Source: Turneriella parva (GTDB lineage: Bacteria; Spirochaetota; Leptospiria; Turneriellales; Turneriellaceae). Taken from it: DNA of 41,091 bases. The stretch lies in the NCBI GenBank assembly GCA_020719945.1, contig DYPL01000012.1, positions 1-41,091 of the forward strand, given 5' to 3'. Below are positions 1-29,851 of this stretch, in pieces. A program made the translations under genes and the position numbers. The notes beneath the pieces were generated by a model. It was not told the origin of the DNA and searched no databases. It was given only the letters and a program-made list of their open reading frames with translations. The number at the start of each line of letters is the position of its first letter. Within the stretch, counting starts at the first letter, position 1.

Positions 1-209
1 AAGGTAGCGCACATTCTCTTTGGATTAACCCCAAAAATGGTGTGGTGGAAGCGGTTCCACGGCATAATGAAATCAAGGAGCCATTGGCAAGAAAAATCTT
101 AATGCAGAATGAGCGTCAAATTTCAATCCCACACATCCTGTATGGCAGAACCGGGCAGGTTTTCTTCGGAGCGGTCGACAAGACAGGTAATAAAATCAAC
201 GGTGATTAA
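1..209 (+). CDS. hicA: HicA-family toxin, C-terminal part (gene starts outside window)
   Basis: An open frame enters from the left edge (first full codon at base 3) and ends at TAA 207-209. Its first 35 residues read like the end of a HicA mRNA interferase: a GSAHSLWINP strand carrying the GS-H motif, then VPRHNEIKEPLARKIL. HicA is a small dsRBD-like toxin that cleaves mRNA and is neutralised by HicB, which would lie outside the window if present. HicA proteins normally stop a few residues after this last helix. Here the frame continues for about 34 more residues with no resemblance to the family, and this tail overlaps the 3' end of the convergent flaA-like gene by 87 bases. The native stop may have been lost. 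The family match rests on a short segment. Confidence 0.6.
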   Translation, partial: GSAHSLWINPKNGVVEAVPRHNEIKEPLARKILMQNERQISIPHILYGRTGQVFFGAVDKTGNKINGD

Positions 210-854
210 AGACACCCCGGGATCTTCTTTGAGATGCGAATGAATAGACAAACCATAAATAGTAAATTCCATTCTTTTCTCGCGGGAAATATTGCGTCGG
301 TGAAGATAGGGTGGAATTGCAACCTCAAACCGCTCCCAACCTTCATAATCCATTCTTGCAATGGGGAGTTCCCGCTGCGGAACTCCGGGCGCAGAAACGA
401 CGAGATTCAATAGATCGCGGCGACCATTTCCGCGCACCCACAGAGCGCAGGCGCGCACGCGACCTGTGGTCAACCAAGGGGAATTGGGAGTTACCAGAAG
501 ATTTTCGCGCCCGGGCCGGGAGAAAAAAAGTCTCATTTCAAGAGATTGCTTTTGATCACTTTTAACGGCGCGATTTCTTGCCTGTGCATAATATATGGCG
601 GTCTCAATGTCGGCAGAATACAGAGCAGACAGCTTTTCTTCTTCGGGATTTTGAGGCTCGGTAAAAAACGGGCGGCCTTGGGACAAAACAACGGATGACT
701 GAACAATCGTTTCGGAGATGACGTGCCAGGGAGTAGATGAGTCAAAGTCTGCTACAATCTGCACGTCGTACCGATCGCTGAGGCGGATTCCTTTATATAT
801 GTCTGGGTTTGCCTGTATGGACAAAGCTGTGATCAAAAACAAGAGCAACCGCAT
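123..854 (-). CDS. flaA: FlaA-family flagellar filament sheath protein
   Basis: This is a 243-residue protein with an N-terminal signal peptide (about residues 1-16, hydrophobic LLLFLITALSIQA). FlaA proteins form the sheath or outer layer of spirochaete periplasmic flagella. The family pattern is visible: an early acidic segment ADFDSSTPW, then the central block MRLFFSRPGRENLLVTP, a V-R-A-ALWVRGNG strand, a GWERFEVAIP segment, and a C-terminal VDFITCLVD strand resembling the family's YFDQIKVLTD. Length is at the short end for FlaA. No convincing Shine-Dalgarno sequence precedes the ATG, but a 25-codon open frame with a good one stops 12 bases upstream, so coupled translation is possible. The 3' end overlaps the convergent hicA-like frame. 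In leptospires flaA genes often occur in pairs; no second copy is in this window. Confidence 0.7.
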   Translation of the reverse strand: MRLLLFLITALSIQANPDIYKGIRLSDRYDVQIVADFDSSTPWHVISETIVQSSVVLSQGRPFFTEPQNPEEEKLSALYSADIETAIYYAQARNRAVKSDQKQSLEMRLFFSRPGRENLLVTPNSPWLTTGRVRACALWVRGNGRRDLLNLVVSAPGVPQRELPIARMDYEGWERFEVAIPPYLHRRNISREKRMEFTIYGLSIHSHLKEDPGVSLITVDFITCLVDRSEENLPGSAIQDVWD

Positions 855-3370: not shown

Positions 3371-4219
3371 CTAATCGCTGCCAATCAATAATTTTTCAAA
3401 AAAGGAATCGACATTCTTCACGATATTACTTTTGGCAATATAATCGGCGATTCGTTGAAACGACTGTTCGTAATGCGACCCAGGAAAAAGAATGACAGCG
3501 GGAATGCCACGCGATAGGGACTGCGTAAACAAACCTTTATCGAGGTAAACGATACCCGCCATAAAAGTTTTGATTTTCACGCCAAATTTCATCTTGGTAT
3601 TTTCCAGAGTGCTGTAGGTCTTTTGCGCTTCTTCGAGCGATTCAGTTTTATTGATAACAATATTAAGTGATTTTGGCCGATTTTTTTCCAGTTGAATAAA
3701 TTTAATTAACTTGTATGTGTCGAGCAGGGATGTGCTTTCCGGATTTAAAACAAGAAGCGCATGGTCAGCAAAAACAATCTGGTTTAAAATTGTTCTGTTT
3801 AAACCCGCACCTGTATCAACAATAATCCAGTCATAAAATTCTTCGAGCATTTTTAATTCTACCAAAACAGCGTCATTAAATTTTCCATCGGCATCGGAGA
3901 CTTTTTTGTCGTCTCCGCCAAAGGAAAGCAAATCGATTCCAAAATCGGTTTCTGAAATGAATTCTTTAATATCCAGTTCTCTATCAATAATTTTGTCCAG
4001 ATAATTGTGCTGTTTTACACCCAAAAGCAAGTGCGTATTTCCAAGATGATAATCCGCATCAATAAGCAACACGCGGTTGCCAGAAATAACATCTGTTTTA
4101 ATTTCTCGTGCTGGCAATGTCGAGGCCAATAACGCCGCAAGATTTACGGAAACAAATGTTTTCCCTGTACCACCTTTGCCACCGCTGACTGTAATTACTT
4201 TAGCTTTTCTTTTAAACAT
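3371..4219 (-). CDS. FlhG/MinD-like ParA-family ATPase
   Basis: This is a 282-residue P-loop ATPase of the deviant Walker A type. GGKGGTGKT lies at residues 13-21 and carries the signature lysine; then come LLIDADYHLGN (Walker A') and DWIIVDTGAGL (Walker B). The spacing and the segments LLLGV, INKTESLEEAQ and a closing FPGS-YEQSF resemble FlhG/FleN, which sets flagellar number, more than chromosome-partition ParA. It lacks an N-terminal DQAxxLR helix, and no clear C-terminal amphipathic membrane helix was recognised. It is the last gene of a four-gene minus-strand cluster, six bases after the HD-GYP gene. No flhF is adjacent. MinD/FlhG membership is firm; a flagellar role is inferred from similarity and from the sigma-28-type promoter in front of the cluster. 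Confidence 0.8.
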   Translation of the reverse strand: MFKRKAKVITVSGGKGGTGKTFVSVNLAALLASTLPAREIKTDVISGNRVLLIDADYHLGNTHLLLGVKQHNYLDKIIDRELDIKEFISETDFGIDLLSFGGDDKKVSDADGKFNDAVLVELKMLEEFYDWIIVDTGAGLNRTILNQIVFADHALLVLNPESTSLLDTYKLIKFIQLEKNRPKSLNIVINKTESLEEAQKTYSTLENTKMKFGVKIKTFMAGIVYLDKGLFTQSLSRGIPAVILFPGSHYEQSFQRIADYIAKSNIVKNVDSFFEKLLIGSD

Positions 4220-4225
4220 TGTTGA

Positions 4226-5575
4226 TCAGTTTTCCACAGTATCTTCTAATTTCGTTGCCAGTGCATCGATCAATTTTTCATCAAATAAATCCTGTTCCGC
4301 AACTATTTTCTCAAAAGCTTCTGTCGGGTTCATTATTGGTTTATATGGTTTTTGTGTAGTCAAGGCAACATACGTTTCCGCAAGCCCGACAATGCGAGAA
4401 TACAGCGGAATTTCTTTGCCAATCAATCCATACGGATAACCGGAACCATCGCTGCGTTCATGGTGATGCAAAACCGATTGGATCACGCGATCGGGTAAAT
4501 TCATTCCAGAGAGAATATCAACAGAATTCTCGGGGTGCTTAATGATCTCCATGCGTTCCTGTTCTGTCAGATAATCTGGCTTGAGCAGAATTTCTTCCGG
4601 AATAAGAAGAAATCCAATATCGCGCAGCGTCGCTGTCATTCTCAATTCATTCATTTGCTCTGGAGTCAATCGAAGAATATTCCCCAGCTCATGGGAGAGA
4701 TTCCGTACGCGCCGCGTATTTTCCCCGCGAAAATACTTTTTCTCCAGCAAATAGACAAAACCTTTTGTAAACGAATCTGCGGTGTATTCTCTAACCAGTG
4801 CATTACTTTCACCCGGATTGGAACCTTTAGGTAAAACAAGTCCTGTCGTGAAATTGTCCGCACGATGCCCGGGTTGTTGGGGAAGGAGAAGTGAATTGTT
4901 TAATACAGGAAGATTGGCTGACGATTGGGGAAGTCCCAATCCAGGGGCAGAGTTTCCAATTTCGCGGTATTTTTTCTTCTTTCCACGAATGATGGAAATC
5001 AAAAACACCAGTATAATAATGATTGATCCAAGTAAAATACTCAAAATTAATTCGGGTCCTTTAAGTGATGGAAACGCAGTGGCGGCAGGTTCTCTCTCGA
5101 TGATTCTTTCTTTCACCTGTTCTTTTGCATTTTTAATAGCTTCCAGATTGCGTTCAATATTCGCAAGCTTGCTGTTTAATTCGCGGATTTTAACGCTCTC
5201 CCCGGCAGAACGCGAAACGCTATTTCGCTTCGGTTTTTTCTCCGGAATTTTTTCCGCAGGGGGTTCTACTTTTGTGATTTCTTTCGCTGGCTCGGTAACT
5301 TCCGCAGGAGGTTCCTTTCCAGCAATGCTGCGTCCACTGTCGGTAAGGCGGCTAACATCGAATTCTTTTTTCATTTTCCAATACCAGGACATTGCTTCCG
5401 TGTGATTGGGATTGATTTTCATCGCTGCTTTAAATGTATCATATGCCGTTTTATAATTTTCAACGGCATAGTTTGCCTTTCCCTCTGCAATGAGCGTATC
5501 TATATCCGCCTGAGCATAAACATTTTGCAACGCAAACGCAAAGAGTATCGTAAATATAAAATTCATCAGTCGCAT
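4226..5575 (-). CDS. Membrane protein with TPR repeat and degenerate HD-GYP domain
   Basis: The chosen ATG (5575) has AAAGGA upstream and begins a signal peptide (MRLMNFIFTILFAFALQ); an upstream in-frame ATG would bury it. In order: signal peptide; a TPR-like unit (about 24-60); a Pro/Glu/Lys-rich and coiled-coil stretch (85-165); a transmembrane helix (about 175-197); a linker; then an HD-GYP domain (about 267-445). HD-GYP domains normally hydrolyse cyclic di-GMP. Here the first metal histidine position is Asn, and the HD-x-GK motif reads RDIGF (R318, D319), so ligands are missing. The HP, HHER and GYP (379-381) elements remain. The domain is therefore probably a sensor or scaffold rather than a phosphodiesterase. 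It sits between the kelch lipoprotein and FlhG-like genes, 11 and 6 bases away. Confidence 0.85.
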   Translation of the reverse strand: MRLMNFIFTILFAFALQNVYAQADIDTLIAEGKANYAVENYKTAYDTFKAAMKINPNHTEAMSWYWKMKKEFDVSRLTDSGRSIAGKEPPAEVTEPAKEITKVEPPAEKIPEKKPKRNSVSRSAGESVKIRELNSKLANIERNLEAIKNAKEQVKERIIEREPAATAFPSLKGPELILSILLGSIIIILVFLISIIRGKKKKYREIGNSAPGLGLPQSSANLPVLNNSLLLPQQPGHRADNFTTGLVLPKGSNPGESNALVREYTADSFTKGFVYLLEKKYFRGENTRRVRNLSHELGNILRLTPEQMNELRMTATLRDIGFLLIPEEILLKPDYLTEQERMEIIKHPENSVDILSGMNLPDRVIQSVLHHHERSDGSGYPYGLIGKEIPLYSRIVGLAETYVALTTQKPYKPIMNPTEAFEKIVAEQDLFDEKLIDALATKLEDTVEN

Positions 5576-5586
5576 TTTTTTGTCCT

Positions 5587-7008
5587 TTAATACGCTTTCA
5601 GCGCGGTATGCCCCATGCGCGGATTTGGCATTGGAGCTTTTGTGCCCCATGTTCCCGAAAGCCCGGTCGTCAAATCATACGAATAGACAGTGCTCACCGG
5701 CGTGGTTAGCCCACCCCCAAAGTGATACAGAGTATTTTCATAAATTTTGGCAGACCCAAATCCCAGGGAAGCTGGCAGGATAGTTGCCCCCTGCCAAGCA
5801 TTGGCTGCAGTGAATGGATACGCCAGCCAGTGATGATAGTTCTGTGTAACCGGTGTTCCTGTATTCAAAGCATAATTGGAATTGGTGTTGATTGTAGTGT
5901 ATCCGCCCAGGAGAATTGCATAATGCTCTCCGGATGGAGATTCCCAAACAGCAGAGGCACTTCCGGCCCGCGCCCCGACTAAAACTACTTCGGTAGCACC
6001 GCTTGTCAGGGAACCACTGCCATCTTGCAGGTTTGGGACAATATAGCCATCGTGTTCATTGACAACGGCGGCACTCGTGCTGCGCCCACCAGAATTGTAA
6101 ATGACATCACCGTATACAAAAGTAATTCTATTAGAGCGATTGGCAGCAAAATTGTCGCGTTGCGTCCATGTGTCGCTGGCAATGTGGTATTCGTATGTAA
6201 TAGCTGAACTCACCCAAGCCACATTGGCCGCACCGGTTGTTCCACCAAGAACAAAGATTCTACCATGGACAACCTCCGCCGAAATATTCGCCCGTGCGGA
6301 GGTCATTGTCGCACCACTCGTCCAGGTATTGGTTTCAACATCGTAAATCTGCACAGCATTCATATTTGCACCCAATGCGTTAAATCCACCTATCACATAA
6401 ATTTTACCACCAGTACCGGCAACTCCCGCAAAACTTACCGGCGTTGGTACAGAGGTGAGAATTGTATACCATGTGTCTATTACGGGATCGTACAGGTCAA
6501 CCTCGGCGACGGGTGTGTTTATATTGTTTCCACTGAGTCCACCAACAAGCCAGATTCCGCGCTTCTTTTGGGCAAGAGTGGGAATTGTTTCCGCCAGCGT
6601 AAAAGTATTTTCTGTTCCTACCGTAAACCCAAGCGTTTCGTGAAAATTGCGGACGCGGTAGTAGTAGGCAGTGTTGGAAGAAAGTGAAGTAAGAGTTTCG
6701 CTGTGACTGGTCGATGCCGTTGAACTTGTGAGGGTAGAAGCAGTGTACGTGCCAGAAACCGTGCCGTATTCGATGATATGGGTTGTCGCGACATTTGTCG
6801 TCCATGTGATTGTCACCGAGTTTGTGCTCACAGTCGTTGCCGTCAGGTTTGTCACTTCAATGACCTGAACAGTGCTCGGCGTTTCTACAGTGCTCGGCGT
6901 TTCTATATTGGCGTTCGGTTGATTGGTGAGTAAATCGGTATTACAACCATAAAAAAAAGCGAATACACTGCCAAGGAGGATGATCCCCATTTTTCTGTTA
7001 AATTCCAT
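5587..7008 (-). CDS. Lipoprotein with fibronectin type III domain and kelch repeats
   Basis: This 473-residue protein has a lipoprotein signal (hydrophobic stretch then FFYGC, Cys22). A Thr/Pro-rich linker contains a duplicated ETPSTV. One fibronectin type III-like domain follows (about 48-137; ITWTTNV, YGTVSGTY, NTAYYYRVR). The rest (about 150-470) is a kelch-type beta-propeller with repeats such as IYVIGGF, IFVLGGT and AILLGGY, each followed by Y-x-x-x-x-x-TW. Such proteins bind proteins or glycans at the cell surface or in the periplasm; the ligand is unknown. Its start overlaps the end of the upstream outer-membrane-type gene by 11 bases, so the two are probably translated together. An in-frame ATG six codons later is an alternative start. 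Confidence 0.85.
   Translation of the reverse strand: MEFNRKMGIILLGSVFAFFYGCNTDLLTNQPNANIETPSTVETPSTVQVIEVTNLTATTVSTNSVTITWTTNVATTHIIEYGTVSGTYTASTLTSSTASTSHSETLTSLSSNTAYYYRVRNFHETLGFTVGTENTFTLAETIPTLAQKKRGIWLVGGLSGNNINTPVAEVDLYDPVIDTWYTILTSVPTPVSFAGVAGTGGKIYVIGGFNALGANMNAVQIYDVETNTWTSGATMTSARANISAEVVHGRIFVLGGTTGAANVAWVSSAITYEYHIASDTWTQRDNFAANRSNRITFVYGDVIYNSGGRSTSAAVVNEHDGYIVPNLQDGSGSLTSGATEVVLVGARAGSASAVWESPSGEHYAILLGGYTTINTNSNYALNTGTPVTQNYHHWLAYPFTAANAWQGATILPASLGFGSAKIYENTLYHFGGGLTTPVSTVYSYDLTTGLSGTWGTKAPMPNPRMGHTALKAY
6869..6904. repeat. Tandem duplication, two 18-bp units
   Basis: Two perfect 18-bp copies (each beginning ACAGTGCTCGGC) lie head to tail inside the kelch lipoprotein gene and encode the repeated ETPSTV of the linker after the lipid-anchor cysteine. 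Copy-number change would lengthen or shorten the tether in steps of six residues without a frameshift. Confidence 0.9.
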
Positions 7009-7888
7009 AGTTTACTCCCGCTTCTATTGTTATGTCCTGAAAATGAATACTTTTTTGAAAAAGTATTTCATATTGAAATAAAGTTCTTATATTGAGATGT
7101 TCCGATACTCTGAAATCAGATCCACTGCCCATGGCATATGCAGGCAAAATTGTGTCGTCTGCGGCAACAATCGCATTTTCTCGGTTATCCTTCATCGACA
7201 CAGAAGCGATGCCACCCTGGAAAAAAACAAATGGTGAAACCCTGGAAAGAAAATAGGCGGTTTTTTTAAAGTCGAGAAACGAGTACAAGACATACGGTTT
7301 CAACGAAAGAATAGAATACTCAACGTTTTTTTCCAGAGAATAGTTTGTGTAAAGATACGCAAGGTTAAGCCCTGCAAACCATCCGCGATAAGGCGTTTTA
7401 AACTCCCCATATCCGCTGATTCTAAGCGAGGGCTCAAACGCTCCAGATAAATCACCTATAACGGAGTAGTATCCCAAATTTCCACCAAAGGTAAAATTGT
7501 ACCCATGGTACGCTGTCTTTTGTCGCGGAATATAAATTTCCTGAATGGAATTTGCGGGAATGGTAATTTGTCCAAAACCAGTATTCAGCAATAAGCCGAT
7601 ATCCTCGTCAAAATCATTTATTTTACCGGAAATAACAGAGTGATCCCCCAAAACAATATTGATAGAAATTTGTGCAATCTGGTCATGTGTGGGCAGGTTT
7701 TTTTCCAGACGACTGGTTGGAATCGTTGTTTCCTTGCCAAAACTTGCAATGACAGTCTTTTCCGCGTTGACGTCTTTTACCTGGCCTAAATAGATTGTTC
7801 CGTCATCGCGAATGATTGTATTCGCAAGCAAAATATGGTTGGTAAAGATAAGTAATAGTATACCCAAAATGCGCCAGGTTCTTTTCAT
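6998..7888 (-). CDS. Probable outer-membrane beta-barrel protein, first gene of the minus-strand cluster
   Basis: This is a 296-residue protein from ATG 7888, which has a GAGG ribosome-binding site nine bases upstream; an in-frame GTG at 7903 is less likely. A signal peptide (MKRTWRILGILLLIFTNHILLA) is followed by a region of about 100 residues with short beta segments (IYLGQVKDV, ISGKINDF, GQITIPANSIQEI) like small LSM/SH3-type folds. A C-terminal half of alternating aromatic strands (FTFGGNLGYYSV, GWFAGLNLAYLY, PFVFFQGGIASV) ends VNYGI, as expected of an eight-to-ten-strand outer-membrane barrel. I do not recognise a named family. A sigma-28-type promoter lies about 55 bases upstream, and the 3' end overlaps the kelch lipoprotein gene. 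Confidence 0.75.
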   Translation of the reverse strand: MKRTWRILGILLLIFTNHILLANTIIRDDGTIYLGQVKDVNAEKTVIASFGKETTIPTSRLEKNLPTHDQIAQISINIVLGDHSVISGKINDFDEDIGLLLNTGFGQITIPANSIQEIYIPRQKTAYHGYNFTFGGNLGYYSVIGDLSGAFEPSLRISGYGEFKTPYRGWFAGLNLAYLYTNYSLEKNVEYSILSLKPYVLYSFLDFKKTAYFLSRVSPFVFFQGGIASVSMKDNRENAIVAADDTILPAYAMGSGSDFRVSEHLNIRTLFQYEILFQKSIHFQDITIEAGVNYGI

Positions 7889-7942
7889 AATCAGTAGCCT
7901 CACTATAGATAAAACGAAAGTTAATCCAGTTTTATTACAACT

Positions 7943-7969
7943 TTATCGGCTCTACTTGCTTCCAACTTA
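7943..7969 (-). promoter_or_regulatory. Sigma-28 (FliA) type promoter for the four-gene minus-strand cluster
   Basis: Read on the minus strand the sequence is TAAG-N15-GCCGATAA. The -10 matches the FliA consensus GCCGATAA in all eight positions, the spacer is the exact 15 bases, and the -35 differs from TAAA by one base. Predicted transcription start is near 7936, giving a leader of roughly 48 bases before ATG 7888. Confidence 0.65.
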
Positions 7970-20310: not shown

Positions 20311-21918
20311 ATGAAAAAATTTCTTCTCCTTTTTCTCATTGTGTCTTCCATGCTGCATAGCCAGACAGGGGTTAACCAGCCAGAACTGGAAAAAAGTAAA
20401 CCGGTTGAGTTCATCAATAATACGAAAACGACAGGAAAAGGAGAGGCCGTTTCTGCTATTCAATCGATCGGCAAAAGTCTGGCCGGAGCAAAAGGCGATC
20501 GGTACACGCTGAGCGGCAAATATACCATTCTGCACCGAGTAGATCCATCTTCCCCGCTGCTGTCCGCAGACGTTTTTATTCTGGAAAAAAATGCACGCGT
20601 GGACCACATTAAGAATGTGCGCAGAATCCTTTCTGGCTATCTCGTGAACCGCTACAAGTACAGCCAGAGCGATGCGAATGCAATAGCCGTTTTTATTACG
20701 TACTACAATGCCGTGTATCGTGGCGATATGAATACTATTAAGGAGAGATACTCTCCCGTAGTGGTTTCTGTCCTCGATGCAAAGAAAGCAGGCATTGCTC
20801 TCAACTACCGCGAATGGCCGGGAGCTACGCAAATGCTCATCCCCCTTGGGGATACAAGGAAACCGGATGCCATAGAAATTTCGGATGAAAAAGTAATCGA
20901 TGAGTTGCGCAAGGAAGATAAAAAGGGAATAGAAGAGCGGGAAAAAATTGTAGAGCTGCGCGAAAAAGAAACCGAGCGCGAAAAAGAAAAAATTAAAAAA
21001 GACAAAGAAGAAATTAAAAAAACAGAAACGCGGATAGAAGAAGAGAAAGAAAAAATAGAAAATAAAAAAGAAGAGATTGAAGAGAAAGAAAAAGAAATTG
21101 AAAAGACAGAAGATCCCGTTAAGCAGAAAGAAGAAGAGGAAAAGCTTGCAGAGGAAAAAGAAGAGCTCGTTAAAGAAGAAGAAAAGCTGAAAGAGGAAGA
21201 AGCTAAAGTAGAAGAAAAGAAAGAAGAAATAGAATCGCGCGAAAAAGAAGTTACGGAAGAAGAAAAAAAGACTGAGGAAATAAAAGACGATATAGAAGAT
21301 GACAAAAGCTCGCTCAAAGATCCAGAAGAGCAGCGCGAGGAGCTTCGCGAAAAAGAAAAAGAGCTCGAACAGAAAGCAGATGAGCTGAAGCAGGATAATC
21401 TGTACGAAGGCAAAATTTATTATCTGCGCAAGGTAACCTATACCACCGGCGGCCACTACAATAACGAAATGTACATCATCGATCCGGTTTCCCGCAAGGT
21501 GGTATTGAAATCACCGTATCGCTCAATTTCCGGTACAAAGTACAATGTCTTTGGTGGTGGCGTCGTCGTGATTGGCCATTCCGACAAGGCAGGCTTTGAG
21601 CAAAAGGAACATTATCTGGTTCGCCTTGCTTTAAATACCCTTAAAGTAGATAAAACGGGCGCGAACAATATATTCTGGCGAAGCTTTATAGAAATCCATA
21701 ACGATCACATTTTTGCTATTACGGAAAAAGAAGGGAAATATTATGTCGGTCGCTTTAACGCAGATCTGCAAATGGTGGCGGTTTCTTCTGTGGCCATAGA
21801 TCCCGATACATTTGTAACGTTCTTTGAAAAAACTGTTTTTGTGAACTCCGCAGATGGTGGCATAGTCGTTCTGAACGAAGACGATCTTTCTCTCGCAGCG
21901 CCCATAGAGTTCCGCTGA
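20311..21918 (+). CDS. P83/100-family spirochaete protein
   Basis: This 535-residue exported protein has a signal peptide (MKKFLLLFLIVSSMLHS). Residues about 30-185 form a globular N-terminal domain (SGKYTILHRVDPSSPLLSADV, YLVNRYKYSQSDANAIAVFI). Residues about 195-370 are an almost pure Glu/Lys coiled coil. The C-terminal 165 residues are a beta-rich domain (KIYYLRKVTYTTGGHYNNEM, YIIDPVSRKVV, FFEKTVFVNSADGG). This three-part layout is that of Borrelia P83/100 and its relatives in other spirochaetes, found at the cell envelope; the molecular role is not settled. ACCGATAA, seven bases upstream of ATG, resembles a FliA -10, but no TAAA is at the right distance. The antisense strand of the coiled coil gives long Phe- and Ser-rich frames that are artefacts. 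Confidence 0.88.
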   Translation: MKKFLLLFLIVSSMLHSQTGVNQPELEKSKPVEFINNTKTTGKGEAVSAIQSIGKSLAGAKGDRYTLSGKYTILHRVDPSSPLLSADVFILEKNARVDHIKNVRRILSGYLVNRYKYSQSDANAIAVFITYYNAVYRGDMNTIKERYSPVVVSVLDAKKAGIALNYREWPGATQMLIPLGDTRKPDAIEISDEKVIDELRKEDKKGIEEREKIVELREKETEREKEKIKKDKEEIKKTETRIEEEKEKIENKKEEIEEKEKEIEKTEDPVKQKEEEEKLAEEKEELVKEEEKLKEEEAKVEEKKEEIESREKEVTEEEKKTEEIKDDIEDDKSSLKDPEEQREELREKEKELEQKADELKQDNLYEGKIYYLRKVTYTTGGHYNNEMYIIDPVSRKVVLKSPYRSISGTKYNVFGGGVVVIGHSDKAGFEQKEHYLVRLALNTLKVDKTGANNIFWRSFIEIHNDHIFAITEKEGKYYVGRFNADLQMVAVSSVAIDPDTFVTFFEKTVFVNSADGGIVVLNEDDLSLAAPIEFR

Positions 21919-21964
21919 TTGTATTGGCAAAAGGCAACGGTCTCCAATGTTAAAGGCGGAACAA

Positions 21965-23275
21965 ATGGTACTCAGCCAGAACAACAGATTCCGGGAAATC
22001 TGGGAGCTGTTGATTCTGGTCGTAACCGTTTACGCATCCATTGAAATCCCTTTGCGGCTTGCCTTTCCCGCTGCCAATGGCAGCCTTGGATATTTTTCGG
22101 ATATTCTTTTTACCATACTGTTTTCGATCGATATTGCGATCAATTTTTTCTTTACCTATAAAGAAAATGTCCGAGAGATTTTCAGTAGAAAAAAAATAGC
22201 ATTAAACTATCTTCGTGGCTGGTTCTGGTTTGATCTGCTTGCCGCCTTTCCGTTCTTTCTTTTATCTGGTCAATCCTGGGTGGATGTAGCGAAATTTATG
22301 CGTGCTCTGCGCCTGTTAAAAATGGGCCGGGTTCTCAAAGTTACCAAAATAGCAGAATTGTCTAAGCACTGGCAAACGCACCACATGGTGAATCCTTCTC
22401 TGCTGAGGATTGTATTCTTCCTTTTTATTATTTCACTCGTTACGCACTGGATTTCCTGCGGCTGGATTTTATTGCGGCCAAGGGAAGAAGGGCTCTCTGA
22501 TGCGGATGCGTATTCGCTGGCCTTGTACTGGGCCGTAACGACGTTAACGACGGTGGGCTACGGAGATATAACTCCCAAAACTCTCTGGGAGCGCTATTAC
22601 ACCATTGCCGTGATGATTGTGGGCGCGGGCAGTTTTGGTTACATTATTGGTAACGTTGCAAGCTTTCTGGCCAACATGGATATTGTTAAGGCCAACTACC
22701 GCAAAAAGTTAGAAGAGATCACAGCCTTTTTAAATTACCGTGCCATTCCTCTGCCTTTGCAAAAACAGGTGCAGGATTATTATGAATATCTCTGGGAAAG
22801 CCGTCTGGGCAATGACGAAAAGACGCTGCTTGAGGAAATACCAGAGCCGCTGCGAACCGATATTGCCATGCACATGCGCAAAGATTTGATCAAAAAAGTT
22901 CCGTTTTTTCAGAAAGGAGAAGAATCTCTTTTGAGAGATATTGTATTGTCGCTTTCTCCCCGCGTGTATCTGCCAAAAACGAATATTATTCGTAAGGGGG
23001 ATGCGGGTACATTTATGTTTATAATTTCGACCGGTACCGTAGATGTTGTATCCGAGGATGAAGAAACCGTTTACGCTACTCTCGGAGAGGGCAGTTTTGT
23101 AGGTGAAATGTCTCTCGTGCTCGACCAGCCACGCACGGCAACTGTTGTAACTCGTACCTATTGCGATGTGTATATTCTGGAAAAATCTGATCTCGATAAT
23201 GTCCTTTTGCGCTATCCTCGCTTTGCTTCTCATCTTCGCGAAATGGTGGCAGAACGGCTGCGAAACCATAGTTAG
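21965..23275 (+). CDS. Cyclic-nucleotide-gated K+ channel, SthK-like
   Basis: This 436-residue inner-membrane channel is unusually close in layout to SthK of Spirochaeta thermophila. S1-S4 carry an S4 with regularly spaced basic residues (FMRALRLLKMGRVLKVTK). The pore has THWISCGW and the K+ filter TTVGYGD (195-201). A long C-linker (about 240-315; TAFLNYRAIPLPLQ, YYEYLWESR) resembles eukaryotic CNG/HCN channels. The cNMP-binding domain has the phosphate cassette GEMSL and PRTAT (E381, R390, T391), so cAMP/cGMP contacts look intact. Start chosen at ATG 21965 because AAGGCGG precedes it at five bases; ATG 21947 in frame is possible. A hairpin follows the gene. It lies just before the flagellar operon. 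Confidence 0.9.
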   Translation: MVLSQNNRFREIWELLILVVTVYASIEIPLRLAFPAANGSLGYFSDILFTILFSIDIAINFFFTYKENVREIFSRKKIALNYLRGWFWFDLLAAFPFFLLSGQSWVDVAKFMRALRLLKMGRVLKVTKIAELSKHWQTHHMVNPSLLRIVFFLFIISLVTHWISCGWILLRPREEGLSDADAYSLALYWAVTTLTTVGYGDITPKTLWERYYTIAVMIVGAGSFGYIIGNVASFLANMDIVKANYRKKLEEITAFLNYRAIPLPLQKQVQDYYEYLWESRLGNDEKTLLEEIPEPLRTDIAMHMRKDLIKKVPFFQKGEESLLRDIVLSLSPRVYLPKTNIIRKGDAGTFMFIISTGTVDVVSEDEETVYATLGEGSFVGEMSLVLDQPRTATVVTRTYCDVYILEKSDLDNVLLRYPRFASHLREMVAERLRNHS

Positions 23276-23421: not shown

Positions 23422-23448
23422 TAAAGCTTTTTTGAATTTTGTCGATAA
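23422..23448 (+). promoter_or_regulatory. Sigma-28 (FliA) promoter of the flagellar operon
   Basis: TAAA (23422-23425), exactly 15 bases, then GTCGATAA (23441-23448): one mismatch from the FliA consensus TAAA-N15-GCCGATAA. The transcription start should fall near 23455, two or three bases before the flgB ATG. Confidence 0.7.
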
Positions 23449-23457
23449 TGTGACAGA

Positions 23458-23892
23458 ATGTTATTCGAAAACGGAAGCTGGGGTAAAACGCAATATCTTC
23501 TCGAAAAGGGGCTCGATGTTTCGATGCTCCGCAGGAATGTGATTGCCGACAATATTGCCAATGCCGACACCCCCCATTTTAAGCGCAGCGAAGTGAGCTT
23601 TGAAGCTGAGCTGCGCCGCGCCCTCGATTCGCAGCGCCATGTGAAGGAAAACGCAGTTCCGGCTTTGATGACGCAAGAGCGCCATATTCCCTTTTTTCGC
23701 GCACGCGATTATCATGATGTAAAAGCGCGCACGCATGTAGATTACCTTTCCACGATGCGCAACGACGGCAACAATGTGGATCCGGAACACGAAGTAGGCG
23801 AGGCTCTCAAAAACCAGTTGAGCTACCAGGCCCTGGCTACGGCCCTCAATAATAATTACAAAATGCTGAACATAGTACTTAGAACGGTTTAA
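23458..23892 (+). CDS. flgB: Flagellar basal-body rod protein FlgB
   Basis: This 144-residue protein is a proximal rod subunit exported by the flagellar type III system. The N-terminal rod signature is clear: LRRNVIADNIANADTPHFKR; so is the C-terminal helix ending in LNNNYKMLNIVL. It heads the operon behind a sigma-28-type promoter and has no Shine-Dalgarno sequence. The ATG lies almost at the predicted transcription start, so it is probably translated from a leaderless or very short-leader mRNA. flgC follows after ten bases with a strong ribosome-binding site. Confidence 0.96.
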   Translation: MLFENGSWGKTQYLLEKGLDVSMLRRNVIADNIANADTPHFKRSEVSFEAELRRALDSQRHVKENAVPALMTQERHIPFFRARDYHDVKARTHVDYLSTMRNDGNNVDPEHEVGEALKNQLSYQALATALNNNYKMLNIVLRTV

Positions 23893-23902
23893 GGAGATAT
23901 AG

Positions 23903-24358
23903 ATGTTTCGCGCGATTAATACAGCAACGACCGGACTCACTGCCCAGCGCCTCAAGATGGACGTAATATCCAACAATATTGCCAATGCCACGACGACGCG
24001 CACTACTGAGGGAGACGGAGCCTACCACCGCAGGCGCGTGATTTTCCAGCCCGTGAATCTGCGCACGCGCTGGAATTCTCCGGTGTATCCTTTTGGACTT
24101 CGCACGGGCGAGGGCCAGGGCGTTCGCGTCGTAAAGGTAGAGCGAGACGATAAAAGTCCCATGCGGATGGTGTACGATCCATCGCACCCGGACGCCATTA
24201 AAATTGGCCCCCAAAAGGGCTATGTGGAGTATCCCAACGTCGATGTGGTGACCGAAATGGTCGACATGATTTCGGCGCAGCGCGCTTACGAAGCCAATTC
24301 CCAGATTATTAACGGCGTAAAGACAATGTTTCAGGCTGCGATGGGCATAGGACGATAA
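23903..24358 (+). CDS. flgC: Flagellar basal-body rod protein FlgC
   Basis: This 151-residue proximal rod protein has the N-terminal signature TAQRLKMDVISNNIANATTT and the C-terminal PNVDVVTEMVDMISAQRAYE plus a final coiled segment, both typical of FlgC. The middle contains the expected HPDAIK-GPQKGYVEYPN stretch. AAGGAGATATAG precedes the ATG. It is the second gene of the operon and assembles with FlgB and FliE onto the MS ring. Confidence 0.97.
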   Translation: MFRAINTATTGLTAQRLKMDVISNNIANATTTRTTEGDGAYHRRRVIFQPVNLRTRWNSPVYPFGLRTGEGQGVRVVKVERDDKSPMRMVYDPSHPDAIKIGPQKGYVEYPNVDVVTEMVDMISAQRAYEANSQIINGVKTMFQAAMGIGR

Positions 24359-24421
24359 AAAAGTATTATGTCTCATGAAAATGCATTGACGTTATAATTT
24401 ATAATTATAAAGGGGTAAAAG

Positions 24422-24769
24422 ATGAAAATAACGGACAGCATGTGGACTATACCGAATGATCTCGTAAAAGGAGACATAATAGGGTTGAAAACGACGCGCG
24501 AGGGACACCAGAATGGGTTACCCCTTGCGGCAGGCGTGGAAAATCCTGCGGGGACCTTTGCAGAAGCTCTCAACCGAGCCTTTGCATCGGTAAACGACCA
24601 GCAGATTATGGCAGAAGAACTCTCCACTAAAATGGCAACGGATCCTGCCTCTGTCGATGCCCACACCGTTATGATCGCGGGCGAAAAAGCCAGGATTTCC
24701 CTGACTTTCGCCAAGGCAGTCGCAGATTCAGTCGTAAAAACATATAGAGAGCTGGTTAATCTGCGGTAA
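24422..24769 (+). CDS. fliE: Flagellar hook-basal body complex protein FliE
   Basis: This 115-residue protein is the adaptor between MS ring and rod. The C-terminal half shows the FliE pattern: FAEALNRAFASVNDQQIMAE, then DPASVDAHTVMIAGEKARIS and LTFAKAVADSVVKTYRELVN. The first 45 residues are variable, as usual. AAAGGGGT precedes the ATG at a good distance. The 63-base gap after flgC is strongly AT-rich, but I see no well-spaced promoter in it. Confidence 0.93.
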   Translation: MKITDSMWTIPNDLVKGDIIGLKTTREGHQNGLPLAAGVENPAGTFAEALNRAFASVNDQQIMAEELSTKMATDPASVDAHTVMIAGEKARISLTFAKAVADSVVKTYRELVNLR

Positions 24770-24825
24770 AAAAAACCAGTGGCTTCCGGGCTTGTTGGAT
24801 AAAACTCGGAAAGGGGAACTTTGGT

Positions 24826-26523
24826 ATGCCGCCATTTTTACAAAAGTACTGGGGCCAGTTTCAAGAGATACTCCGCAAACTGGATAACCGCCAAAAAATT
24901 ATTCTCGGGGTTGTCGCTGCTGTCTTGGTAGGGGCCATAGTGGTCGTTACTTCCATGTCTTCTACGGAGGGCAAGGTGGTTCTGTACAAGGGCATGGAAC
25001 CCACGGATTTTGCAGCCGTTACGGGAAAACTGAAAGAGCTCGATTATTCGTTTTCAACATCTGGTACGAATGCCATTTTTGTTGCGCCCGAAAAAAAAGA
25101 CGAAATTCTGATGGTTCTTGCCCAGGAGGATTTAATTCCCAAAGGCATAGCCGGCTGGGAACTGTTTGATCTCGATAAGTGGTCAGAAACCCAGTTCGAA
25201 AAAGAAGTCAAAAAACAGCGAGCCATGAAGGGTGCCCTCTCGCGCACTTTGTCTACTCTGAGTTCCGTTGAATCGGCGGAGGTCAATATTGCCTTTCCCG
25301 AAGACGGCCTGTTCGAAGATAATCTGATACCCGTAACGGCAGCTGTTTTGCTGCGTTATAAACCGGGCGTAGAATCTCTTACCCGCAAAGAAATTAAGGG
25401 GATTGAGACTCTCGTCTCCCGCTCCATTCCCGGGCTAAAGCGCGAAAACGTTTCCATTGCCGGTCCCGATGGCAATATACTGAACGATTTTGACGACGAT
25501 ATTGAAAAAGACAAATGGGAGCTTAAGCAGGTTACCGAAAAACTCAAAATCCAGGAAGTACAGCGCCTTAAACTTCTCAATGATATAAAAAGTTCCCTCG
25601 GTAAATTTTACGGAGAAGGAATGTATGGCGAACGATTTGAAGTGGTTCGCCTTGAAATAGCACTCAACTGGGACAAAGAAAAAATTGAGGCAAACGAAGT
25701 GTCTCCGGTTGTGATGACACCCGATAATCCCGAAACGCCCTACTCTGAACGCGTCGTCCAGGATTCTCTTGAGGTTTCTTCTAAAGAGACGACAGAAAAA
25801 TTTGAAGGTAACGGTTTTACTCCCGAGGGCCCCGCCGGAACCGAGCCAAATATTCCTCCGGGATATAAAGACAAAGATTACCAGCGTGCCTCTTACGAGA
25901 AACGTGAAAATATAAAAAACAGTGAATTCAATAAAACGCACCGCCAGATAGAAAAGCAACCCTGGGAAATAGAAGGGGTTTCTCTCTCCGTGATTCTGGA
26001 CGGGCACTGGGAAGTACTCGGAGAAAAAAAAGACGGATCGGGTTTTGAGCGCAAATATTTTTCCGTTTCTGAAACAGATCTTGAAAACATTACCGATGTT
26101 CTCAAAAAGGCTATCAGTTACAATCGCGCTCGTGGTGACCAGATTTCCGTCCGCCATATCCAGAAAGACCGCTCGGCACAGTTTGCGAAAGAAGACGCAG
26201 AACTTAGAAGAGAAAAAGCATTCCGCAGAACTCTCTTGGCAACTCTGATTACGCTTGTAGGGTTGGCTCTTGCAACGATTCTCTTCCATGCCATTCGTAA
26301 AGAAATGGAGCGTCGCAGAAGACTGCGCGAAGAAGAACTGGCAGCCCAGCAGCAGATGATGCGCGAGGCAGCCCTGCGCGCCATTGAAGAGGAAGGCGTA
26401 GAGGTAGAAATGTCTCTTGAAGAAAGAGCGCGCAGAGAAATGCTTGAAAATGCCATTAACCTGGCCAAAGAACGACCAGAAGATGTTGCGCATCTTCTCC
26501 GAACTTGGCTTTCTGAAGAGTAA
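24826..26523 (+). CDS. fliF: Flagellar MS-ring protein FliF
   Basis: This 565-residue protein forms the membrane-embedded MS ring. Two transmembrane helices flank the periplasmic part: about 24-45 (IILGVVAAVLVGAIVVVTSM) and about 465-487 (LLATLITLVGLALATILFHA). Ring-building motifs are visible (LYKGMEPTDFAAVTGKLKEL, VNIAFPEDGLF, LVSRSIPGLKRENVSI). The final 35 residues (MLENAINLAKERPEDVAHLL, then RTWLSEE) are the FliG-binding tail. AAAGGGGA precedes the ATG. fliG begins five bases after the stop. Confidence 0.97.
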   Translation: MPPFLQKYWGQFQEILRKLDNRQKIILGVVAAVLVGAIVVVTSMSSTEGKVVLYKGMEPTDFAAVTGKLKELDYSFSTSGTNAIFVAPEKKDEILMVLAQEDLIPKGIAGWELFDLDKWSETQFEKEVKKQRAMKGALSRTLSTLSSVESAEVNIAFPEDGLFEDNLIPVTAAVLLRYKPGVESLTRKEIKGIETLVSRSIPGLKRENVSIAGPDGNILNDFDDDIEKDKWELKQVTEKLKIQEVQRLKLLNDIKSSLGKFYGEGMYGERFEVVRLEIALNWDKEKIEANEVSPVVMTPDNPETPYSERVVQDSLEVSSKETTEKFEGNGFTPEGPAGTEPNIPPGYKDKDYQRASYEKRENIKNSEFNKTHRQIEKQPWEIEGVSLSVILDGHWEVLGEKKDGSGFERKYFSVSETDLENITDVLKKAISYNRARGDQISVRHIQKDRSAQFAKEDAELRREKAFRRTLLATLITLVGLALATILFHAIRKEMERRRRLREEELAAQQQMMREAALRAIEEEGVEVEMSLEERARREMLENAINLAKERPEDVAHLLRTWLSEE

Positions 26524-26528
26524 AAAAT

Positions 26529-27545
26529 ATGGCACTGGCAAAGTCAAATGAATTATCGGGCAAGCAGAAGGCGGGTATCTTTCTGCTTGCCATTGGTCCG
26601 GAAATCTCTGCCGACGTAATGAAGCGTCTCAATGAAGCAGAGGTAGATACGATTACGTATGAAATTGCCCGCCTCGACAAGATAACGCCAGAACAAAAAG
26701 AAATGGTGCTCCAGGAATTCCAGGAGCTTATGATGGCTCAGGAATTTATTACCCGTGGTGGTATAGACTCCGCGCGGGCTATTCTCGAGAGAGCTCTGGG
26801 CAGCCAAAAAGCCATTGATATTGTAAACCGTTTAACGAGTTCCCTTCAGGTCAGGCCATTTGATTTTGTGCGTCGCCAGGATCCTTCCCAGCTCATGAAC
26901 TTTATCCAGAATGAGCACCCCCAGACGATTGCGCTCATTTTGTCTTACCTAGATCCTCAAAAGGCAGCTCTCATATTATCGAGTTTGCCGCACAATATAC
27001 AGCCAGACGTAGCCCGCCGCATTGCCAAGATGGACCGCACATCTCCGGAAGTTTTGCGCGAGGTAGAGCGCGTTCTTGAAAGAAAGCTTTCTACTTTGTC
27101 TAACGAAGATTATACTCTTGCCGGTGGTGTTGAGGCCATCGTGGAAGTATTGAACCAGGTTGACCGTGGTACAGAAAAAAGTATTATTGAAGCTCTCGAA
27201 GAAGAAGATCCTGAACTTGCCGAAGAAATCAAAAAGAAAATGTTCGTCTTTGAAGACATTGTTCTTCTGGACGATCGCGCTATCCAAAAGATTATGCGCG
27301 AACTTGATGCGCAGGATCTTGCCAAATCTCTGAAAGCTGTTGATACAGAGGTGCAGGAAAAGATTTTCAGAAATATGTCCAAGCGTGCAGCCAATCTGTT
27401 GCGCGAAGATATGGAATTCATGGGGCCAATTCGTCTCAAGGACGTGGAAGATGCGCAGCAGAAAATTGTGAACATCATCCGTAAACTCGAAGAAGATGGA
27501 GAAATTGTCGTTGCGCGGGCCGGAGAAGACGAACTCGTCACCTGA
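26529..27545 (+). CDS. fliG: Flagellar motor switch protein FliG
   Basis: This 338-residue protein joins the MS ring to the C-ring and contacts the stator. The N-terminal domain begins LSGKQKAGIFLLAIGPEISA; the middle carries the EHPQTIALILSYLDPQKAA motif; the C-terminal domain has VFEDIVLLDDRAIQKIMREL and the torque helix ELDAQDLAKSLKAVD, with conserved charges. Length is normal. Spirochaetes often have two FliG proteins; this one, directly after fliF, is most likely the functional switch copy. Confidence 0.97.
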   Translation: MALAKSNELSGKQKAGIFLLAIGPEISADVMKRLNEAEVDTITYEIARLDKITPEQKEMVLQEFQELMMAQEFITRGGIDSARAILERALGSQKAIDIVNRLTSSLQVRPFDFVRRQDPSQLMNFIQNEHPQTIALILSYLDPQKAALILSSLPHNIQPDVARRIAKMDRTSPEVLREVERVLERKLSTLSNEDYTLAGGVEAIVEVLNQVDRGTEKSIIEALEEEDPELAEEIKKKMFVFEDIVLLDDRAIQKIMRELDAQDLAKSLKAVDTEVQEKIFRNMSKRAANLLREDMEFMGPIRLKDVEDAQQKIVNIIRKLEEDGEIVVARAGEDELVT

Positions 27546-27557
27546 TAGGAGTGAACC

Positions 27558-28481
27558 ATGTCGAAACTTGTTTTTTCTGAAAAAGAAGTATCCCAGCAAA
27601 AAAAAGCATTTATTCTGGAGATGCCCGAGAAATATAAAAAATACCAGCAGATAGATGAGCTGGCTGAATTTGAGCTCGATGCAGAAGGCAATATTGTAGA
27701 GCAGTATACGGGCCCTTCTATTGAAGAAATTGAGGCCGAGCTCCAGCGCTACCGCGAAGAAACCGAAGAAGAAATTAAGCAGCGCCTTAAGGACGCAGAG
27801 ACAGAGCGGCAGAAAATTATAGACGCAGGCAAATCGGAGGCGTTTCGCCTGATTCAGGATGCCAAAGAAAAAGTTCGAAAAGAAGAAGAATCTGCCCGCT
27901 TAGAATCTCTGCAGATAGTAGAGAGAGCCAAGCTGGAAGTAGAGCGCATGGTAAAAGAAGCCGAAATGCGCGTTGCCGATATTGAACACGAAGCCTACCA
28001 GAAAGGGTACAACGCTGGGCGCGAGATTGGCTACCGCGAAGGCCAGGGAGAAGTGCGCCGCCTTATAGATCGACTTGGTACTATTTTAGGAAACGCCATT
28101 GACGTTCGCGAGCAGATTGTGCGCGAATCAGAAAAGCTGATGGTGGAAATGATTCTGATGATTGCCAGAAAGGTAATTAAAGACGAAATCATAGAGCGCA
28201 AAGAAGTTGTGCTCAATAATATTCGTGAAGCTCTTGCGCGCATTAAAGAAAGAGACCGGGTGGATATTCGCGTGAACTTTGCCGACTTGGAGTTAACGAC
28301 GGCCCACAAAGACGAAATTGTCAAGATGATGGAATCTCTGCGCAAAGTGAATATTTACGAAGACTCCCGCGTGGATCGCGGTGGCGTAATTATAGAAACA
28401 GACGTGGGTGCTATCGATGCACGCATTTCTACACAGCTTAAAGAGATCGAACAGGCTATACGCGACGCGAAGCCGCTTTAA
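27558..28481 (+). CDS. fliH: Flagellar assembly protein FliH
   Basis: This 307-residue regulator of the export ATPase FliI shows a long acidic, coiled-coil N-terminal half (about 50-155) and a C-terminal FliH/YscL domain (MILMIARKVIKDEIIERKEV, VDIRVNFADLE, RGGVIIETDVGAIDARI). TAGGAGTGAACC precedes ATG 27558, and fliI begins eight bases after its stop. In spirochaetes FliH forms the spokes joining FliI to the C-ring. Confidence 0.93.
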   Translation: MSKLVFSEKEVSQQKKAFILEMPEKYKKYQQIDELAEFELDAEGNIVEQYTGPSIEEIEAELQRYREETEEEIKQRLKDAETERQKIIDAGKSEAFRLIQDAKEKVRKEEESARLESLQIVERAKLEVERMVKEAEMRVADIEHEAYQKGYNAGREIGYREGQGEVRRLIDRLGTILGNAIDVREQIVRESEKLMVEMILMIARKVIKDEIIERKEVVLNNIREALARIKERDRVDIRVNFADLELTTAHKDEIVKMMESLRKVNIYEDSRVDRGGVIIETDVGAIDARISTQLKEIEQAIRDAKPL

Positions 28482-28489
28482 GGAATTGT

Positions 28490-29851
28490 ATGATAGCGCG
28501 AAAAATAATCAAATCTGAAAACGTGATAGAAAAGTACCGCGCTATCATAGAGAATACCGAAACGATTCGCTCTCTTGGAGTCGTGAGAAAAGTCCACGGC
28601 AACACGGTGTATTCTATAGGGCCAGATGTTCATCTTGGCGAGGTATGCTATATTGAACGCATTGAAGATGATGAATACTACATTCCTGCCGAAGTGACCG
28701 GATTTGAAGGCAACGAGGTTATTTTGTCTCCTCTGGAAAGTGTTCTTGGAGTGTACTCTGGATCGCGTGTGGTGGGAACGGGACAGTTTCCAGGAATGCG
28801 CGTTACCGATAAAGTTATCGGCAGGGTTATTAATGGGACCGGTGTTCCCATGGACAGGGCCGGAAAAATTTCCGAAGGGGAATTTCGTACACTACAGGCT
28901 TCGCCACCGAATCCCGTGGAGAGACCTTTGATTCGAGAGAGAATGGAAACAGGCGTGCGCGCCATTGACGCTATGCTCACGATTGGAAAAGGCCAGAGGA
29001 TAGGAATTTTTGCTGGATCCGGTGTTGGAAAAAGTACACTCCTTGGAATGATTGCGCGCTACAGCAAGGCAGACGTAAATGTGATAGCCCTGATTGGAGA
29101 ACGGGGCAGAGAAGTATCAGAATTTATACAGAAAGAACTGGGTGAAAACGGGATGAAAAAATCTGTCGTTGTGGTAGCGGCAGCCAATGAATCTCCCATG
29201 CATCGGGTACGCGCTTCTTTCCTCGCGACCACGATTGCAGAATATTTTCGCGATCAGGGAAAAAATGTCATGCTCATGATGGATTCTCTGACCCGTCTCG
29301 CCATGGCACAAAGGGAAGTGGGATTATCCGTAGGCGAGCCAGCAACTACGCGTGGTTATCCGCCGTCGGTTTTTTCCATGCTGCCCAATCTTCTCGAAAG
29401 AGCAGGTTCTGCCAAAAAAGGCAGTATCACCGGGATCTATTCTGTTCTGGTCGAAGGGGACGATCTCAATGAACCTATTACGGACGCTGTGCGAGGTATT
29501 ATAGATGGACATATCGTTTTGTCTCGAAAACTTGCGGGAAGCGGTCATTATCCCGCCATAGATATTGTTTCTTCTATCAGCCGACTCATGCCATTTGTAG
29601 CGGGAGAGGGGCATATGGCCACTGCAAACTATATGCGCGAAATGCTTTCCGAATACAGAGATAACGAAGAGATCATCAATCTGGGCGCGTACGCGAGAGG
29701 AGCCAATCCACTTCTCGACGAAGCTATTTCTGCCTATCCAGAAATAAAAAGTCTTTTGCGACAGAGAATGGATGAGTATTCTAACTGGAACGATAGCATT
29801 GAACGATTGCAGAATATTGCGATGAAACAACGCCGTGGAGGTAATCGTTAA
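28490..29851 (+). CDS. fliI: Flagellum-specific ATPase FliI
   Basis: This 453-residue ATPase energises flagellar type III export. It is a relative of F1-ATPase beta. Walker A is AGSGVGKST (175-183); Walker B is the VMLMMDSLTRLAMAQREVGL segment; GLSVGEPATTRGYPPSVFSM is the FliI/YscN signature. AAGGAATTGT precedes the ATG. Its stop overlaps the fliJ start as TAATG, so the two are translationally coupled. Confidence 0.98.
   Translation: MIARKIIKSENVIEKYRAIIENTETIRSLGVVRKVHGNTVYSIGPDVHLGEVCYIERIEDDEYYIPAEVTGFEGNEVILSPLESVLGVYSGSRVVGTGQFPGMRVTDKVIGRVINGTGVPMDRAGKISEGEFRTLQASPPNPVERPLIRERMETGVRAIDAMLTIGKGQRIGIFAGSGVGKSTLLGMIARYSKADVNVIALIGERGREVSEFIQKELGENGMKKSVVVVAAANESPMHRVRASFLATTIAEYFRDQGKNVMLMMDSLTRLAMAQREVGLSVGEPATTRGYPPSVFSMLPNLLERAGSAKKGSITGIYSVLVEGDDLNEPITDAVRGIIDGHIVLSRKLAGSGHYPAIDIVSSISRLMPFVAGEGHMATANYMREMLSEYRDNEEIINLGAYARGANPLLDEAISAYPEIKSLLRQRMDEYSNWNDSIERLQNIAMKQRRGGNR

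Follow-up and report, generated by a model that had tools for sequence, protein, structure and literature searches.

The MinD-family ATPases BcsQ and CpaE/TadZ are encoded together with envelope-spanning machines. The related ATPase FlhG carries an N-terminal enhancer helix, marked by the motif DQAxxLR, that activates FlhF (PMC12826062). LapD of Pseudomonas is an inside-out receptor for cyclic di-GMP (c-di-GMP) that is built from GGDEF-EAL and HAMP domains and has the protease LapG as its partner (PMC3032553). In the HD-GYP phosphodiesterase PmGH (4mcw), alanine at K225, H189, H221 or D222 abolishes activity, R314 and K317 contact the guanine base, and the enzyme stays active when the recognition residues are singly mutated to alanine; degenerate HD-GYP domains are able to act through protein contact (PMC4159591). 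A cluster of four genes with likenesses to each of these systems is found at positions 7888-3371 on the minus strand of a 41,091-nucleotide stretch of Turneriella parva DNA (contig DYPL01000012.1 of assembly GCA_020719945.1, hereafter the window). The four genes encode, in order, a predicted outer-membrane barrel (gene 1), a kelch lipoprotein (gene 2), a membrane-anchored HD-GYP protein (gene 3), and a MinD-like ATPase (gene 4).

The product of gene 3 resembles LapD in that it would be anchored in the inner membrane, carry a c-di-GMP-type cytoplasmic domain that is catalytically dead, and have a periplasmic output to a surface protein. It differs from LapD in its domains, which are TPR, a transmembrane (TM) helix, and HD_5 only, with no GGDEF-EAL-HAMP architecture and no LapG partner, and the cluster combines an HD-GYP domain, a TPR arm, an outer-membrane barrel, a kelch lipoprotein, and a MinD-type ATPase. 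The resemblance is an analogy of working principle only. With BcsQ and CpaE/TadZ the cluster shares a MinD-family ATPase encoded with an envelope-spanning set, but it contains no synthase, secretion ATPase, or pilin. The HD_5 domain, the GYP motif, and the basic nucleotide-contact positions of gene 3 are those of PmGH-type phosphodiesterases, whereas the broken catalytic site and the attached TPR and TM segments are not. Gene 4 is like FlhG, FleN, and MinD in its deviant Walker A motif, its best profile matches (FleN and FlhG), and its conserved, predicted amphipathic C-terminal tail; it is unlike FlhG and FleN in lacking DQAxxLR and linkage to flhF, in falling into its own clade, and in having many cluster counterparts with broken P-loops. 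The cluster is not a LapD system, gene 4 is not FlhG, and gene 3 is very probably not an active HD-GYP enzyme.

Gene content and conservation of the cluster

The four open reading frames form one minus-strand run with gaps of -11, +11, and +6 bp between genes 1 and 2, 2 and 3, and 3 and 4, respectively, exactly as an earlier sequence-only reading of this DNA had reported. The likely start codons are ATG 7888 for gene 1 (with an in-frame GTG at 7903), ATG 7008 for gene 2, ATG 5575 for gene 3 (449 amino acids; the open frame reaches 5650), and ATG 4219 for gene 4. The proposals of the sequence-only reading that the genes constitute one transcription unit and that their products span the cell envelope are both supported by what follows.

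Relatives were searched with each of the four proteins and the phylum was then searched with profiles, using a sample of 393 Spirochaetota genomes; each neighbourhood obtained was then read through, one gene after another. Genes for a barrel, one to three kelch proteins, a TPR-TM-HD-GYP protein, and an ATPase-like protein follow one another in this order in 14 of the sampled genomes from nine families (G000, G056, G061, G068, G130, G131, G193, G196, G220, G285, G305, G332, G379, and G001). The barrel is missing from G001 only since its contig begins inside the kelch gene. The gaps are mostly shorter than 40 bp and many of the genes overlap. The sequences themselves are highly diverged: orthologues are often 15-30% identical, and the median pairwise identities of the barrel, kelch, HD-GYP, and ATPase proteins are 24%, 30%, 24%, and 16%, respectively. 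The distance matrices of the four proteins correlate in every pair (Mantel r of 0.28-0.71, p <= 0.035), as expected for long shared descent. The sequence-only reading had made co-occurrence in related genomes the main test of its proposal, and the cluster passes that test. Full-text literature searches, with subscription papers outside their scope, returned no description of the four-gene spirochaete unit. The operon is real and conserved, and it seems not to have been described before.

Reduced versions of the cluster are found in other genomes. Four Turneriellaceae-type relatives (G002, G004, G006, and G008) possess a barrel, a kelch protein, and a small lipoprotein, and a barrel, a kelch protein, and a short TPR-TM protein are encoded in G026 as well as in the genomes G047, G035, and G019 of family f5, the barrel of G019 lying beyond the start of its contig. 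Since the barrel-kelch pair persists in Turneriellaceae and further Leptospiria-type families in the absence of the HD-GYP protein and the ATPase, the envelope half is taken as the core and the cytoplasmic half as a control module. At L055 (G002:C236) the reduced pair and two flagellin genes lie in divergent orientation.

Domains of the cluster proteins were assigned using Pfam and NCBIfam. Gene 1 (6998..7888, minus strand), whose orthologues come first in all complete clusters, encodes a protein with a signal peptide for which no Pfam family was matched. The orthologue profile weakly matches OmpA/NspA by sequence (E of 0.003-0.15). An AlphaFold model contains eight long C-terminal strands at low confidence (mean pLDDT, the predicted local distance difference test score, of 53), and the best Foldseek neighbours of this model are NspA, OmpA, Ail, OmpX, and OmpW. 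The region of residues 133-295 (7004..7492) is accordingly a predicted OmpX/NspA-like eight-strand barrel of the outer membrane. Two features set the protein and its locus apart from the known barrels of this type: a kelch lipoprotein neighbour and two tandem small, SH3-like beta units ahead of the barrel (residues 23-119, 7532..7822), which are predicted to be periplasmic. The AlphaFold strands of these units, at 23-57 and 75-119, are of low to medium confidence, and the repeat is visible in the alignment. Related barrel genes at L106, L108, L111, and L116 adjoin lipoproteins other than kelch proteins, some of them giant (1391 and 1827 amino acids), and this arrangement suggests a wider barrel-lipoprotein pairing.

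Gene 2 (5587..7008, minus strand) encodes a kelch beta-propeller lipoprotein, in which both the kelch repeats (Kelch_1, 8.8e-26, in four stretches) and the lipobox cysteine are present. This residue, Cys22, is invariant in the cluster kelch proteins that were aligned (16/16). An FN3-like domain is located at the N-terminus, with PF16656 above and fn3 below the cut-off. One genome also contains giant open frames with kelch repeats, about 2690, 5497, and 6449 amino acids long (G040:C10:254093-280744).

The HD-GYP protein and the ATPase

Gene 3 (4226..5575, minus strand) encodes a signal peptide, a TPR/coiled-coil arm, one TM helix, and an HD-GYP-like domain; Pfam detects HD_5 (4e-36) and weak TPR. 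The TM helix spans residues 177-195 (4991..5047; hydropathy of 3.12) and is followed by IRGKKKKYR, in agreement with the positive-inside rule. Among the 13 orthologues scanned, the N-terminus is hydrophobic in most, and all 13 have a strong single TM helix and, shortly after it, basic residues. This topology places the TPR/coiled-coil arm in the periplasm and the HD-GYP domain in the cytoplasm.

The HD-GYP domain (4271..4735) was mapped on PmGH. The residues at positions H189, H221, D222, H250, H276, H277, and D305 are N, R, D, H, H, H, and E, respectively, while K225 is replaced by F and D308 by V. The intact metal ligands and catalytic lysine of an active enzyme are therefore not present in gene 3, whereas the HD_5 fold, the GYP motif, and the basic residues at R314 and K317, which mark a cyclic-dinucleotide binder, are retained together with I294. 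The same division is observed across the cluster. The K225 equivalent is F or Y in 14/14 orthologues, compared with K in 12/14 control HD-GYP domains, and at least one of H189, H221, D222, H277, and D305 is changed in 12 of the 14 orthologues, at positions that differ by lineage. All 14 retain G284-Y285-P286 and I294 and have a basic residue at each of the positions R314 and K317. From these residues the domain is very probably non-catalytic, and the loss of catalysis with retention of the nucleotide-recognition positions is a pattern that would fit a receptor that binds nucleotides and descends from a phosphodiesterase. The sequence-only reading had called gene 3 HD-GYP-like and suggested that the four proteins together may read a cyclic-nucleotide or surface signal. 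A domain for a nucleotide signal in the cytoplasm is supported, and a receptor without catalysis is a better reading of this domain than an enzyme.

Gene 4 (3371..4219, minus strand) belongs to the AAA_31/CbiA/ParA families of Pfam, and its closest solved relatives by profile matching are FleN (5j1j) and FlhG (4rz2), followed by MinD. The deviant Walker A motif of MinD-type ATPases, GGKGGTGKT, is present (GGKGGTGK, 4160..4183) and is invariant in the group of cluster ATPases with an intact P-loop. The N-terminus is MFKRKAKVITVSGGKGG, and the DQAxxLR motif is absent. The intact cluster ATPases constitute a clade apart from FlhG (support of 96/93), and gene 4 is linked to neither flhF nor flhA. 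The FlhG of the same genome carries DQATGLR and is encoded at another locus (L212) in the order flhA-flhF-flhG. The identification of gene 4 as FlhG was ruled out on these three grounds. The C-terminal segment (KNVDSFFEKLLIGSD, 3374..3418) is a candidate for a MinD-like membrane-targeting helix: its SFFE[KR] tail is conserved in the intact cluster ATPases, and the tails of the orthologues have a high hydrophobic moment.

A scan of the collection with the ATPase matched G131, which is Spirochaetes bacterium RBG_16_49_21, and among the 80 loci obtained no barrel-kelch neighbourhood was found outside the spirochaetes. Lineages with an intact P-loop (L101/L132) tend to have a broken HD motif, and those with a broken P-loop (L104/L105/L110) tend to keep the HD motif and to have lost H189 and D305, a tendency toward two distinct routes of degeneration.

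The FliA promoter and the relation to flagella

The sequence TAAG-N15-GCCGATAA, which the sequence-only reading had placed ahead of the first gene as a FliA (sigma-28) promoter, is present at 7969-7943 (7943..7969, minus strand), 54 bp before ATG 7888. It is the sole exact match in the window and scores 12/12, a value that no shuffle of the upstream region equals. Two matches with at most one mismatch occur in the window, compared with 0.45 expected. In the genome of 2.42 Mb there are four exact matches, three of which lie between genes, in the sense orientation, and with less than 60 bp separating them from a downstream start; assuming about 2300 genes, the probability of these positions by chance is approximately 1e-4. 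The same three properties are shared by six of the 22 one-mismatch sites, and these precede flaA, a methyl-accepting chemotaxis protein (MCP)-type gene, an M23-like gene (assigned by eye), flgB, and two others. One-mismatch sites overall are not enriched in the genome (26, compared with 43 for a reversed-pattern control), so the signal resides in the site positions only. The genome also encodes fliA. For comparison, FlaA1 of L. interrogans has a sigma-28 motif (PMC12655853), and the mapped flaB2 promoter of T. denticola has CCGATAA (PMC9481697).

Upstream of the other clusters, the best matches to the motif are 8-10/12 and are mostly equalled by shuffles, and in the flagellin promoters of the T. 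parva genome the motif is not visible by eye. FliA control, as first proposed, is supported in part: judged by its sequence and position, the promoter is credible in this genome, but no such motif can be recognised ahead of the other clusters, so the link to motility is perhaps lineage-specific. A look-alike, TAAGTTTT-N-GTCGAAAA, is shared by the upstream regions of G002 and G004. The second FliA-like site of the window, with one mismatch, is at 23422-23448 (plus strand), 10 bp before the flgB gene that heads a flgB-flgC-fliE-fliF-fliG-fliH-fliI run (23458-29851, plus strand). The other intergenic exact sites, L069 (G000:C64:62205) and L071 (G000:C99:38897), precede, one each, a 7TMR-DISM membrane protein whose end is cyclase-like and a secreted protein of 252 amino acids.

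The cluster kelch gene was detected by profile in 28/393 genomes and flagellin in 349/393; more than 90% of the flagellated spirochaetes sampled do not possess the cluster. Flagellin is present in all 25 genomes tested that carry a kelch or barrel-kelch locus, and FliA passes its cut-off in 22 of these. Given the base rate of flagellin, the 25/25 co-occurrence is uninformative. The patchy distribution indicates an accessory system and not a core flagellar function. The sequence-only reading had suggested that the four proteins may position flagella or another polar structure. Positioning of flagella is not supported: in view of the separate FlhG-FlhF locus of the genome, the separate ATPase clade, and the patchy distribution, flagellar placement was rejected as the leading explanation.

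A FlaA2-like gene is located 2.5 kb downstream of the cluster at 123-854 (minus strand); its NCBIfam FlagFilOutFlaA2Lepto score of 37.6 bits is far below the cut-off. The window further contains a Borrelia P83/100-like protein (20311-21918, plus strand), a cyclic-nucleotide-gated ion channel (21947-23275, plus strand), and an EAL-domain protein (37441-38820, minus strand).

Proposed mechanism and alternatives

The gene content, the order and spacing, the topology signals, the catalytic loss with nucleotide-recognition residues kept, the ATPase relationship, and the promoter motif are the observations from which we infer a ligand, a physical complex, a direction of signalling, surface exposure, a localisation, and a biological outcome. 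In the mechanism proposed, the cytoplasmic HD-GYP domain, lacking catalysis, would bind a cyclic dinucleotide, most likely c-di-GMP. Binding would alter the state of the periplasmic TPR/coiled-coil arm through the single TM helix, and the arm would engage the eight-strand barrel together with the kelch lipoprotein(s) paired with it. A signal from inside the cell would in this way set the surface propeller, which would act in adhesion or another surface interaction. The FlhG/MinD-family ATPase would attach to the inner membrane through its C-terminal amphipathic helix and may place or cluster the complex along the cell, and in this organism the operon would probably be transcribed with the motility genes by FliA. 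A probability of roughly 0.4 is assigned to this mechanism, in which a dead HD-GYP receptor would signal outward to a surface complex of barrel and kelch proteins and a MinD-family ATPase would serve as the placement factor.

Several points weigh against this mechanism. The retained GYP, R, and K residues could be structural instead, two orthologues (G056 and G196) keep all of the metal ligands tested and have lost K225 (and D308) only, and the structure model of the HD-GYP domain is unusable (pLDDT of 45). The barrel model is likewise of low confidence, and the kelch and barrel proteins could be purely periplasmic. A shared operon is no proof of a complex, and ordinary vertical descent would also yield the correlated divergence. 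In G061, G130, G196, G285, G305, and G379 the P-loop of the fourth gene is degenerate, Pfam finds no ATPase, and only position and a weak similarity of profiles tie the proteins to the ATPases. Since the P-loop is degenerate in most of the clusters that do not belong to the intact group, ATP-driven localisation is not general.

Of the alternatives, an outside-in sensor survives best, and it is judged unlikely. The kelch protein would bind a ligand at the surface, and the signal would pass inward via the barrel and the TPR arm to the HD-GYP domain and the ATPase, which would act on the cytoplasm or on the chemotaxis and flagellar machinery. The same anatomy would serve, the FliA-type site is shared with the MCP gene and flaA, and signalling by protein contact would be in keeping with the ability of other degenerate HD-GYP domains (PMC4159591). 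The survival of the envelope half alone in several lineages, however, means that the output is not always inside, and the conserved nucleotide-recognition residues point to an input from the cytoplasm.

A role in the assembly or retention of surface lipoproteins and outer-membrane proteins is also doubtful. The barrel and the TPR arm would deliver or hold kelch lipoproteins in the outer membrane, with the cytoplasmic parts regulatory or vestigial, and the presence of one barrel with one to three kelch copies and of related barrels beside other giant lipoproteins (L106, L108, L111, and L116) would be accounted for. An eight-strand barrel, however, has no lumen for export, and the conserved nucleotide-recognition residues are left unexplained. 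Flagellar or polar placement, with gene 4 as an FlhG-type controller of number or position tied to the envelope, draws on FleN and FlhG as the closest solved relatives, on the FliA-type promoter, and on the flagellin found with every kelch or barrel-kelch locus tested; set against the DQAxxLR-bearing FlhG beside flhF and flhA, the separate clade of the cluster ATPases, the abundance of flagellin in genomes without the cluster, and the degeneracy of the ATPase in many clusters, it is improbable. The possibility that unrelated envelope genes lie together by chance or with a loose functional link, to which the mostly unrelated and variable flanking genes and the loss of individual parts might point, is very remote, since the same order and tight spacing persist in 14 genomes from nine families despite extreme divergence, by which coincidence is already refuted.

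A bolder reading, judged less likely than not, is that the cluster represents an undescribed class of trans-envelope machine of Spirochaetota, in which a dead HD-GYP receptor and a MinD-family ATPase would jointly control and position a barrel/kelch surface complex. In some species the machine would be connected to the flagellar regulon, so that, for example, surface attachment or crawling could be matched to the rotation of the endoflagella.

Every part of the cluster comes from a known family, and the retention of the four-gene order across at least nine families at high divergence is good evidence for a real system. An FlhG/MinD-like gene near a FliA promoter is not to be read as a flagellar placement gene. 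If the proposed mechanism is true, the cluster would be a case of an FlhG-like ATPase recruited away from the flagellum and a candidate example of a spirochaete surface controlled from inside by c-di-GMP via a dead HD-GYP domain.

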